Of a stretch of 64,000 nucleotides of DNA, positions 11,701-57,011 are shown piece after piece. The first letter of the stretch is position 1, and every line of letters begins with the position of its first letter. Made by a program: the position numbers and the translations under genes. This DNA comes from Ischnura elegans (lineage: Eukaryota > Arthropoda > Insecta > Odonata > Coenagrionidae): positions 46,500,881 through 46,564,880 of the forward strand of contig NC_060252.1 of NCBI RefSeq assembly GCF_921293095.1. The letters are read 5' to 3'. The notes beneath the pieces are model-generated. The model had not been told where the DNA came from. It searched no databases and saw nothing but the letters and a program-made list of their open reading frames with translations.

Positions 11701-14700
11701 GGGGAGGATGCTGGGAAGAATTCGTAACGCGTAGGAAGAATATAAGCCCTATGCGGGGTAGAATTCGCGATTTTATGTGGGAAGAGGGAAATGCCAGGAT
11801 GATAAGCAAAATGTATCAAGTAAACCTAATTTTAAAGGAAAGGTAAGCTCGAAGCTTATATTTTGTTTGACTAAACAATAGCAAAGAAAGGTCCTTGAAC
11901 AGAGTAATTCTCAAGGACGCACAGTGGGCTGAAATCGGAAAAAGCTGGACAAAACCTCGAAAATGGTTTTTTTGAGTATGGAAGTTGAAACTTTGCACAG
12001 TTGTTGCCAACACATTAGTGCATTTTTTGACGCAAAATATTTTTCTTAGGCTAATTTTTTGTATAAAACACATAGCCTCAAAGTTGAACAAATTTGGCGG
12101 AAATTGCCCGCTTTGAATTTTTTTCGAAATTCAGCATGTTTAAACTAATGTCACACCTTTAGTAGTAATTCAATAGCAACAAAAATTTATAAATTTGTTA
12201 AACGGTTTGTTATCATCGATTACCATCAACTTTCACGACTTAATTGTTGTATTTGTGACCAATACGATACAAAATGGCGGACCCTGTTTTTCGTCGAATT
12301 TTTGTGTTTATGTAGGATTTTAAAAAAAGGATCACCGAGTTACCTCGAGATATTTACACCACATATACAACAAAGTATATAGATTATGATAATCGGAAGT
12401 ACAGCTGCGACCACCTGCGACGCCGAAATTAAGATCGATTTTTCGAACGTGCGGCACCGCCCGGAGCTGGCTGCTGGCTACGGGAATTGCCGTACTCGAC
12501 GGATGTTGGATAGTGAATCATTTTAAATAAATTTATTGAATAAAAGCTATGATATATTATTACTACATTTATTTTCCTTTTGTTGTAACCCGATTTCTTT
12601 ACTGTCTTGTAATATTTATCACCGATGCAGTACAAAATGGCGGACGCTAATTTCAGTAACATTTTTGCCCGTGTGTGGCTGTATAAAAAGGAGGACACCG
12701 AGTTGCTCTCAGATATTTACATCGTCATTGCATCAAGCCTTTTAGAGTCTTCATCCACGGAAATAATCTGCGACCGTTGGCAACAAACTAAATAAAATCG
12801 ATGTTTTTACCGTGCCGCGCAGTCCGCGGCTGCTCCCTGGGCTCATGGATTGTCGTGACGCAGCGTACATTATAAAGCGCTATGAATGCAAAGCCTTTGC
12901 TGAGGATGTATTTAATGTTATTATTAACTGTATAGGCTTTTAGGCTTCTTTCTCAGTCCTTCCATTTTTGATAAAAGGTTATCAATGAATATTTAAATGA
13001 ACCCTATGTACATGTAATAGCATCACTCCGAGTCGGTTGATGAACTGTCGCTTTCACTTCGAGGCTGCAGGATTTCTGGGTCATCATCATTTAGTAACAG
13101 TAAATTCCTCACTTATATCGGCATTCTTCGGGATTTCTTTGTAATTAGGGGTGCGGCGTTGGATATTACTGAATCTGAGGTCAGGAGGAGCCGACGAAAT
13201 AAGTCATCGTTGGTAGATATATTCTAGAGTGCTTCCTGCTAAAGCTTTCTCGATATTTTCTGCTATCTTTATTGCGTGCTTCAATTGCTTCTTCACATAA
13301 TATCCCTAGAGGAAGAATCATCTCTGTAGCTATACCTGCTCCGTGTATTAGGACCTTATGAACGGTTTGGGGCACCTAGAACTCCTACCTACAAATATTC
13401 CTCCGACCTAGGCTCTTGTTGCCAAACTTGATTATACTGCGAATGCTCATAACTGCCGTCGAAACCATATTTACAAATCAGAGTGCACTTCAATTCACTT
13501 CTTGCATCAGGAACAGTTGCCACGCAAGCTAGAATCGGTGAGGCAGTGTGCGACAGGAGAGTTTGTTGATTGACTTCGCACGATATTTCTATAATCTCTA
13601 TGCCATCAGGGTACGCAGTATTTTTAGCAAACCTCACTCTTTCATAGTTCGGGTATAATTTATGACCATGGCTTTCAGCTATTTTCCGAAGACACTTGTT
13701 GTGGTTTTTCGTCAGGTGCATCGATATGATAACAGAAAGAGCCTCGTCTTCTGACATTATGGAGGAACCTGAGATGGGTGTCTTCCATTTAGCTAGGACT
13801 CTCCTTGCTCTGCTTGGAATGGTCGTTGTAATGTCCTTCACTAGTTTGGAGGCCGCCTCATCTCCTTCCTCTCCAATTGTCATCGATGCTGCGAATGATA
13901 AAGTTGCCGCCGAGTGAGAAGATCTAAGACTTTCAGTCTTCCTCCTCTTAGTTCTTTCGCTAACTTTGTCATTTTTTTCCGGGCGTCCACCAGATTATTA
14001 TGGGATCAAAGTGAGTAAAAAATCGCCCTTAAATCCATTGAGATAATGCAACAACTCAGGTCACTTATTAATCGCATATACTTATCCAAAGAATTAGAAG
14101 CTCTTGTCAATTCTAGAACGTTTTCTGGTACATATATAGGTGCTTTCAGCCGCTCAATATTTCTCCTCAAACATCTTTCATTGTTTCTACTGCAGGCTTC
14201 CCATTTCCTTTGGTAGCGAATCAAAAAATATCGTGTAAGAAAGTCACTAAGGCCCTTCGTAGCTTCAATATTACCTTGCGCGTGAAATTTTTTCGTCAGA
14301 TATTAGGTACATTAAAAATTCATATCTCTGCAAAGGATTTACATCCGGATTTGACAACCTTTTTATGAAGCAATAGACGAATTACCTCGAGACCAGACAT
14401 TTTTAAAATGCTCCAAATTTGTTGTTCAATTCAACACTGGTTCTATTTCAGGCGAACGAGTTTCCAATAACAAGTAACATACATGAAAATTAAAGAAAGG
14501 GTCAATTCTAGAGGCGTTAATGGTAAATAAAAAAAGGGAAATTTCTTATAGCACGAGGCAAATATAAAGAACTACAAATGAAAATCTCTTACCAGTTTGG
14601 ATGATAGATGCCTGGTGAATGAGTGATTGACACCGCCAATGCAGTTAAAGCAGAAAACCGATGATATTCCGCGGAGTTCTCAATATCTAAAGCGCGTGTA

Positions 14701-17700
14701 TCCAAGTGCATCCAAAATCACCACAGCAAAACTAACCTCTTTCACTGTATATTCAAAACTAAATTCATATATGAATTTCTTTCTGGAAACGGAATTTCCG
14801 AAAAAAGGTAAAAGGGACCGCACACGAGCAACGTGGGGTCATAAAAAGACCCTTTTCGCGACTACCGCATGGGGTGGACGGGCAAATACCAACCAGCTGC
14901 AGGCTGGTCGCCTGGTTGTAAAATCTATTTTGTCTTTGAGGTTAGAAGCAGGCTAATAGAGCCGTTTTACCCATCCAAGGGGTAAAATGCACGAGCGGAA
15001 TTGTCAGAGTTTCAAGTCAGCTAGTTTGTTTTCAGGAATTTTCTAAATAGTCACTAGTCAGTAAAAATGGATAGAGGAATGAATTCATTTACCTAAAGTG
15101 ACAACAAACCAACTTGAAATGAAATGGTAATAATTATGTTAGAATAAAACATACCCACAGCAAATATTTCATAGCGCTTTATGATGTACGCTGTGTCACG
15201 ACAATCCATGATCCCAGGGAGCAGCCGCGGACTGCGCGGCACGGTAAAAACATCGATGTTATTTAGTTTGTTGCCAACGGTCGCAGATTATTTCCGTGGA
15301 TGAAGACTCTAAAAGGCTTGATGCAATGACGATGTAAATATCTGAGAGCAACTCGGTGTCCTCCTTTTTATACAGCCACACACGGGCAAAAATGTTACTG
15401 AAATTAGCGTCCGCCATTTTGTACTGCATCGGTGATAAATATTACAAGACAGTAAAGAAATCGGGTTACAACAAAAGGAAAATAAATGTAGTAATAATAT
15501 ATCATAGCTTTTATTCAATAAATTTATTTAAAATGATTCACTATCCAACATCCGTCGAGTACGGCAATTCCCGTAGCCAGCAGCCAGCTCCGGGCGGTGC
15601 CGCACGTTCGAAAAATCGATCTTAATTTCGGCGTCGCAGGTGGTCGCAGCTGTACTTCCGATTATCATAATCTATATACTTTGTTGTATATGTGGTGTAA
15701 ATATCTCGAGGTAACTCGGTGATCCTTTTTTTAAAATCCTACATAAACACAAAAATTCGACGAAAAACAGGGTCCGCCATTTTGTATCGTATTGGTCACA
15801 AATACAACAATTAAGTCGTGAAAGTTGATGGTAATCGATGATAACAAACCGTTTAACAAATTTATAAATTTTTGTTGCTATTGAATTACTACTAAAGGTG
15901 TGACATTAGTTTAAACATGCTGAATTTCGAAAAAAATTCAAAGCGGGCAATTTCCGCCAAATATGTTCAACTTTGAGGCTATGTGTTTTATATAAAAAAT
16001 TAGCCTAAGAAAAATATTTTGCGTCAAAAAATGCACTAATGTGTTGGCAACAACTGTGCAAAGTTTCAACTTCCATACTCAAAAAAACCATTTTCGAGGT
16101 TTTGTCCAGCTTTTTTCGATTTCAGCCCACTGTGGGACGGCGCGCGGGTACGCTGGAGGCTTTCTTTCTTTGATCTCTAATATCAGGGGCGGTCTGGCAA
16201 GGTCGGCAATCGCCGAGGGCCCTAAGCTAAGGGGACCTCCAAAACTCGCGTCCATTGTGAAGCGTGTATGAAATGTGTAATGCTAAAAGACTCAGATTAT
16301 TTTCGCCAAATTTTTTTGCGATATGTATTAAAATTCTGAGTTTGCATTAGTTTCTTTATTTACAGTATGCTCAGTGTAAAGCTTTATATAAAAAAGTAAA
16401 TAAAACGAAGGTGTTATGAAATAAAAGACCTGATGCTTTTTTGAAAGGGTTATTTTAGAGTTTCATTTTAGATTTCAGTACAGTTTCAAGGATCAAATTC
16501 ACTAAATAGATAATAGAACCGTAATGCATTATTCAATTTTTTAAGCTGTGAAGTTCTCTCTTTTAATTGTATTTTTCCTTACGAAATTGCTATTTTTTAT
16601 TAACCTTAATCTAGTTATTATGAGCCAGAATAGCGTCAAAATCAATTTGCGGACATTCAATTTCCTAAAATTTTGCGGGGGAGGACTCCCGAATCCCTCG
16701 GTAAGGGGGCCCCACTATGAGCTACAGCCGAGGGGCCCTAATCACCCCAGACCGCCCCTGTCTACCATGTTAAGTTCATAGGGGAAACGTATCCTGGACC
16801 TTTTTCGGCAAATACTTCTGACCGACCAAATTTATGCCCAAGCGCAGGCCATCTCTTTCATCGGTTGCTATGAATGAGGATAGTTTTTTTTCCCGAGGAA
16901 TCAGCGTCAAGCCATTTCGTGTAGAAATGATCACGGGCGAAGCTCTAAATCCCCCTTTTATTTGGAATGAGTCATCGTCTTGCGTACTCCTGTGCCTGGT
17001 ACGTAGCCTTTATTTTTCTATTCCCGTCAGTCCCTCACGCACTTGACGGGGGTAACTTTTGTGTCTGCTTAGGGGGTGAATAGTGAGGTGGGGAAGAAAG
17101 GTATTAAGATAAGAGTGCTCAGTTTTGATCGGTAATAACAGCCGAGTACCTAGAGGTTAAATGTTGCCTTCGCGCTCTGTTAACCATGTGACCACGGACC
17201 GCTGCGGGCAATATTCCCACTGCAAAAAAGAATCTAGTCGTTGCCCTAAAAGATTCATTTGAAGAGAGGGCAATTTGTCAGATTCTATCATCATTGAACG
17301 TAAAAATGAATCGATCGTATCTATAACTCATATAGTGATGCCTGTATTGATATTTGCGGATCCAGAGATGAATTTATTTTGATATTGCATAATGTATAAT
17401 CGAGTTCATCAAACGCATAAGATTGGTTAACACGGGAACCATCTCGCCTAAGCCACTCCCGCATGCATCCGATATTGCCGGCCTCGGTGGCGCCGGGGTA
17501 AAGTCCCCGACTGCCAACCTAGAGGTCGCGGGTTCGAATCCCGCCTGGGTGGCTTGACTACCATCCAGGGCATGGATGTTTGTTAATGTCTAACAAGTTA
17601 ATTGTAAGAGAGGACAACTTTGTCCTAAATTCGCTTGTATAATAAAGACATATTATTATTATTATTATATTCTATTGCATTTCTTTCTGCTATTCTCTCC

Positions 17701-56321: not shown

Positions 56322-57011
<690 letters not shown>

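Follow-up and report, generated by a model that had tools for sequence, protein, structure and literature searches.

Does a transposon of the damselfly Ischnura elegans whose ends carry, letter for letter, the heptamer of the V(D)J recombination signal sequence (RSS) form a special link to the origin of that signal, or is it an ordinary member of a family with such ends, and could it move by itself? Transib belongs to the group from which the antibody-gene recombinase arose, RSSs are commonly traced to Transib-like ends, and an earlier note on a 64,000-nucleotide stretch of chromosome 7 (C7:46500881-46564880; this whole stretch is called the window) had proposed a Transib transposon at 11920..16134, bounded by exact heptamers, as a copy bearing on that descent. 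We compared this element with the whole genome (1.72 Gb, 110 scaffolds) and conclude, with a probability of about 0.95, that it is a cut-and-paste transposon of the Transib superfamily in I. elegans, internally deleted and non-autonomous.

The element in the window and its family

Read directly, the element begins at 11920 with CACAGTG and ends at 16134 with CACTGTG, the same heptamer on the other strand, so that the proposed coordinates of the 4,215-bp element and its heptamers are exact. The 5-bp duplication GGACG is present on both sides as had been claimed, and each terminal inverted repeat measures 967 bp, the two differing at 7 positions and leaving 2,281 bp between the arms. The features are given below in window coordinates; HzTransib is the Transib transposase of Helicoverpa zea whose crystallised chain is 6pqn, and L059 is a longer genomic relative of the element, L numbers denoting stretches fetched from the genome.

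11915..11919, unstranded: left copy of the target-site duplication, GGACG, 5 bp (sequence read)
11920..12886, plus strand: left terminal inverted repeat, 967 bp; CACAGTG at its start, a 22-bp spacer, then ACAAAACCT
13181..13375, minus strand: C-terminal transposase fragment with the motif of the third catalytic residue (...CEEAIEARNK...); an open frame, the equal motif of L059 aligning with HzTransib
13369..13382, unstranded: internal deletion junction, where about 1.1 kb is gone relative to L059, including the exon of the second catalytic residue (comparison with L059)
13389..13994, minus strand: 201-aa transposase relic with an N-terminal block starting GRP and the first catalytic Asp (KYGFDGS); HzTransib 6pqn, E 2.4e-10
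14006..14302, minus strand: 98-aa frame resembling an exon-like upstream stretch of L059 (2815-3210; compared by eye)
15168..16134, minus strand: right terminal inverted repeat, 967 bp, ending CACTGTG
16135..16139, unstranded: right copy of the target-site duplication, GGACG, 5 bp (sequence read)

HzTransib was the sole match of the 201-aa relic in the PDB (E up to 1), which bears out the RAG1-like transposase relic of the earlier note and keeps the best protein match within Transib. The frame at 13181-13375 was placed through the motif of L059 (HzTransib, E 3.3e-38). Against Pfam-A the relic had one chance-level match, under the cut-off, and four other frames, including those at 13181-13375 and 14006-14302, had none; the 98-aa frame at 14006-14302 had no match in the PDB either. 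An AlphaFold model of the relic was discarded at a predicted local distance difference test score (pLDDT) of 38.5.

Searching the genome with the first 40 bases of the element, at up to 3 mismatches, returned 669 occurrences (the element's own ends included) and none for the reversed control. Identity to the window copy was 94.5-97.8% in nine further copies, 4.2-4.4 kb in length (L009-L016 and L022), the match of L022 being split in two pieces and its duplication pair read by eye. CACAGTG stood at 33 of 33 full ends, a count that covers the fetched copies and the window's two and drops one row, an internal second match in L022. The other copies ended at the same positions, and perfect 5-bp duplications (CGGCG, CGCCG, GGACG, GGTCG and CGGGG) flanked 11 of the 12 distinct complete insertions, the window's included, so the comparison with other copies that the earlier note had called for came out in favor of its element; L017 differed at one base, and seven further loci showed one end only. 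L018 and L019, which share their flanks, were counted as one insertion. Both (C1:2.06 Mb and C7:116.88 Mb) are 2.4 kb long, a shortened derivative whose duplication and 10-bp flanks agree between the two chromosomes; the neighbouring DNA was probably duplicated together with a single insertion.

L059 is an undeleted relative of 5,351 bp, flanked by a CGCCG duplication, with ends identical over 30 bp. About 1.1 kb that is present in L059 is missing from the window copy, and the left breakpoint of this deletion was identical in the nine deleted copies examined, a sample that includes the partial stretches L053 and L058. The window element is a member of a non-autonomous family sharing one internal deletion from a 5.35-kb relative. 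Intron-like gaps interrupt the transposase of L059, whose exons match HzTransib (E 3.6e-31 and 3.3e-38); its first exon has an extra short PDB match, to the designed protein 7ona.

The shortened frame is open over 326-334 aa in six stretches (L043, L044, L053, L054, L055 and L058), and it might have been kept as a repressor in the manner of the KP elements of the P-element type, a reading that we consider improbable. In three clades of deleted copies (25 rows) the ratio of nonsynonymous to synonymous differences per site (pN/pS) was 0.81, 0.73 and 0.83, against 0.90, 0.87 and 0.87 in neutral simulations. Lower values were found only in sets with undeleted copies (0.30, with a wide interval, and 0.47); over all 33 rows, 17 of which contain stops, the ratio was 0.63. 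Because pN/pS is near neutral in the deleted clades, we rejected the KP-like repressor and read the deleted copies as passive derivatives.

Still less probable is a RAG-like (RAGL) transposon of the ProtoRAG type, with RAG1-like and RAG2-like genes and closer to vertebrate RAG. Such an element would agree with the exact RSS heptamer, and 5-bp duplications are common to RAGL and Transib (PMC7204232). However, the relic and a six-family profile (both at E up to 1) and the last exon of L059 (at E up to 0.1) matched only HzTransib in the PDB and no RAG1 or ProtoRAG chain, and the published end consensus of protostome RAGL elements starts CACTWMCAAAC, not CACAGTG.

For the internally deleted Transib, mobilisation would be in trans: a Transib transposase made elsewhere would bind the ends and cut beside CACAGTG, the heptamer marking the cleavage site, perhaps by a nick-hairpin reaction like that of HzTransib. 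The element would insert at 5-bp sites rich in G and C, most of them CGNCG-like, and these would be duplicated; the inner conserved blocks (GAAAAA.. and, after the 22-bp spacer, ACAAAA) are probable binding sites. Homology to Transib transposases is carried by the relic and by the first and last exons of L059, and the D-D-E triad of an autonomous, active Transib is incomplete in the window copy, which lacks the exon of the second residue; this denies the autonomy of the copy, not its Transib membership. Several observations weigh against this account. An intact D-D-E triad was found in no window-family copy, and the second catalytic residue was Asn in all three undeleted copies of the family that were read (L046, L051 and L059). 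No empty site was found, none of the 40 scored of 192 candidate matches to the joined flanks spanning the joint, and movement itself was not observed.

The heptamer, its spacing and the recombination signal

Because the fetched copies came from a query containing the heptamer, we ran a pattern free of it. This returned 745 window-family ends (those starting with A, C or T), and among the 100 listed, 88 had CACAGTG, 12 had single-base variants and none had CACWATG. Three other Transib families, those of L082, L084 and L085, start with CACAGTG at both ends and carry perfect 5-bp duplications (CGACG, CGCCG and CGACG, respectively); at the protein level their first exons share 46-55% identity with the window relic, as taken through L073, L081 and L071. 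The spacer in these families is 22 bp, except for 23 bp at one L085 end; with the window's family counted, three families have 22 bp at each end and a fourth has 23/22 in one copy. The block after the spacer is ACAAAAGTC or CCAAAAGTC in the three families and ACAAAACCT in the window's, and the inverted repeats are about 1 kb long in all but L084, where they are about 44 bp. L061, which belongs to the family of L085, showed one CACAGTG end within its fetched stretch, and those of L060 and L083 held no recognisable ends.

Across the genome there were 3,286 occurrences of CACAGTG-N22-ACAAAA (82 of its reversed control) and 174 of CACAGTG-N12-ACAAAA (control, 85). The earlier note had named CACWATG as the more frequent Transib end; here CACWATG-N22-ACAAAA lies near background (471 against 227). 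A wider pattern allowing any CACNNTG, CACNNTGGNCNGAAATCGAAAAA, gave 2,205 occurrences and no control matches, and the 100 ends listed comprised 93 CACAGTG, 3 CACTGTG, 2 CACAATG, 1 CACACTG and 1 CACCGTG. Transib ends of this genome usually have CACAGTG, the spacing and the A-rich block, and the special status implied for the copy is not supported. Seven bases are little evidence by themselves, the heptamers of Transibs differ from family to family, and reviewed RAGL ends have little in common beyond CAC, but the idea that CACAGTG arose by chance in one copy or family, and is uninformative on other Transibs, is very hard to believe given the three families whose transposases share 46-55% identity with the relic, the share of CACAGTG among the CACNNTG-tolerant ends listed and the excess of the spaced pattern.

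Like the vertebrate 23-RSS, the window element has CACAGTG as its heptamer, and after the 22-bp spacer at the window end ACAAAACCT matches the RSS nonamer ACAAAAACC at 7 of 9 positions. Single-base shuffles (20,000 draws) reached 7/9 in 0.6% of cases with spacers of 22-24 bp and in 1.1% with spacers of 12 or 23 ± 1 bp. Unlike the vertebrate signals, the two ends hardly differ in spacing and lack the 12/23 asymmetry, and we treat the nonamer part as a resemblance and claim no homology for it.

The Ischnura proteins share a homologous transposase core with HzTransib, in which the first catalytic Asp and the Glu motif line up, and HzTransib is described with long inverted repeats and a 5-bp duplication, as in the window element (PMC1852546). 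The window element differs from it in sequence and length, and the second catalytic residue is Asp in HzTransib and Asn in the three undeleted window-family copies. The N-terminal GRP block of the Ischnura proteins is unmatched in the crystallised chain, and similarity to the nonamer is reportedly little or none in HzTransib (PMC8289069). In two reviews, Transib ends are described as RSS-like, with some heptamers and nonamers equal to the canonical RSS, with symmetric spacers of 20-22 bp and, in a few Transibs, even with a 12/23-like asymmetry (PMC8355894, PMC6941560). The Ischnura families, with their near-symmetric spacing, are unlike those 12/23-like Transibs of Kapitonov and Jurka 2005, as reported in the same reviews. 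Given the RSS-like ends of the reviews and the long repeats and 5-bp duplication of HzTransib, the element belongs to a known kind. RSS-identical Transib ends having already been described in reviews, the window element adds support and not a new kind; its bearing on the origin of RSSs, claimed at the outset, holds as supporting evidence and not as a decisive new link. A literature search on Transib in Odonata and on ends and heptamers, of partial coverage, gave nothing on the window family among the matches listed, and the Odonata papers listed made no mention of Transib.

The GRP block stands at the start of the first conserved transposase exon, was invariant in 6 of 6 aligned rows (L059, L060, L061, L082, L083 and L084), is accompanied by basic residues and recalls the GGRPR motif of RAG1 described in PMC6941560. 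We claim no homology to the nonamer-binding domain of RAG1: a profile built from this exon region matched only HzTransib, from profile position 79 on, and no RAG1. Thousands of CACAGTG ends with a block 22 bp in, and with spacers varying by family, are natural material for tests of signal requirements, in which the needed parts of the signal could be tested without RAG2 or the 12/23 rule.

Asparagine at the second catalytic position

The catalytic residues of HzTransib are given as D126, D225 and E436 (PMC6941560), and a common offset places them in GFDG, TMIDGK and EARNK of chain 6pqn (hand count on alignments). We call the first two positions D1 and D2, and we label the families F1 (the window element, L046, L051 and L059), F2 (L061 and L085), F3 (L146, and L082 by similar matches), F4 (L084), F5 (L149 and L108), F6 (L147) and F7 (L148 and L124). 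D2 was read in 70 Ischnura stretches, namely L046, L051, L059-L061, L083-L085, L146, L147 and the 60 short stretches L086-L145. In this non-random sample, its 60 short stretches being picked from 150 matches and some perhaps duplicated with their surroundings, the residue was Asn in 56 (29 AAC, 27 AAT), Asp in 12 and Ile in 2. L146 is the same copy as L102 and L147 the same as L122, both with AAT, so that Asn stands at D2 in 54 of the 68 Transib copies sampled, from several families. D1 was Asp in 16 of 16 rows tested. The E motif was present in L046, L051 and L059 (F1), L061 (F2), L146 (F3), L083 and L084, whereas the stretches fetched for L060, L082, L085 and L147 did not show it.

A 16-row tree built without the D2 column placed F2, F3, F5 and F6, all with Asn, in one clade (support 99/99), F1 beside the Asp-bearing L060 (94/95) and F7 apart, which implies three changes at D2. 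A quick tree of the D2 exon alone (67 columns) grouped F1 with the other Asn families at a support of 81, but a single origin of Asn is unsupported by the longer data. In the approximately unbiased test, holding nine Asn rows together gave p = 0.035 and holding all ten gave p = 0.119, the groups having been named after the data were seen. In the clade of F2, F3, F5 and F6 the codon-model ratio omega was 0.105, and it was 0.096 and 0.074 in two other row sets, from a rough fit in which synonymous sites were saturated and the kappa estimate was extreme. Both AAC and AAT occur within this clade, so Asn stayed while synonymous changes continued.

Either the Asn enzymes work somehow, or Asn recurred and the copies ride in trans on Asp relatives with similar ends. 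It is possible, though on balance we doubt it, that a group of damselfly Transib families, the window's included, encodes Asp-Asn-Glu (D-N-E) RAG1-like transposases as a long-standing, selected state. Such an enzyme would either be active despite the Asn at its second metal-binding position or stay inactive until Asp is gained, which may happen by deamidation of Asn-Gly or by adenosine-to-inosine editing of an AAY codon read as Asp. The synonymous letters around the Asn codon vary between families and gave no sign of a conserved editing structure. Against a fully functional D-N-E enzyme, part of the amplified copies have themselves arisen by deletion (the E exon is missing from L085 and L082), and a D-to-N change in the triad is reported to contribute to the inactivation of the SETMAR transposase (PMC6715855). 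The literature, searched with partial coverage for catalytic Asn, gave nothing on the window family among the matches listed.

A selected D-N-E state, if real, would act as an intrinsic brake on a large burst of Transibs whose ends are identical to the RSS. If Asn transposases are functional, the role of a supposedly indispensable residue of the RAG1/DDE group must be reconsidered; dead ones would instead make this genome an example of inactive lineages that were amplified in trans.

Separately, we observed six copies of one Transib family with one TGA each in the D2 exon (C4:1459132, C1:93211408, C3:115210800, C5:135118824, C10:9112350 and C9:97483191), as though a defective version had multiplied.

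Transib load and the surroundings of the element

There were 2,464 candidate matches to the Transib first exon, of which 150 were scored, autonomous or not; according to PMC4411706, autonomous Transibs usually number one or a few per animal genome. One family had 11 stop-free copies that are 95-100% identical over about 600 bp, for which segmental duplication is possible, and several of these copies lie towards scaffold ends. A pair of Transibs about 10.5 kb apart recurred at C2 ~0.28, C3 ~138.8, C4 ~134.3, C5 ~1.4, C6 ~125.4, C7 ~0.32, C8 ~116.4 and C19 ~119.5 and 121.5 Mb, mostly towards scaffold ends, as if large blocks had been duplicated both between and within chromosomes.

Rfam at its gathering threshold gave no match in the window. 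The right flank of the element holds a short repeat (window ~16183-16239) with many genomic occurrences, probably another mobile element, and an exon of a thymidylate synthase gene lies at 56589-57011 on the minus strand (PF00303, E 2.2e-52).

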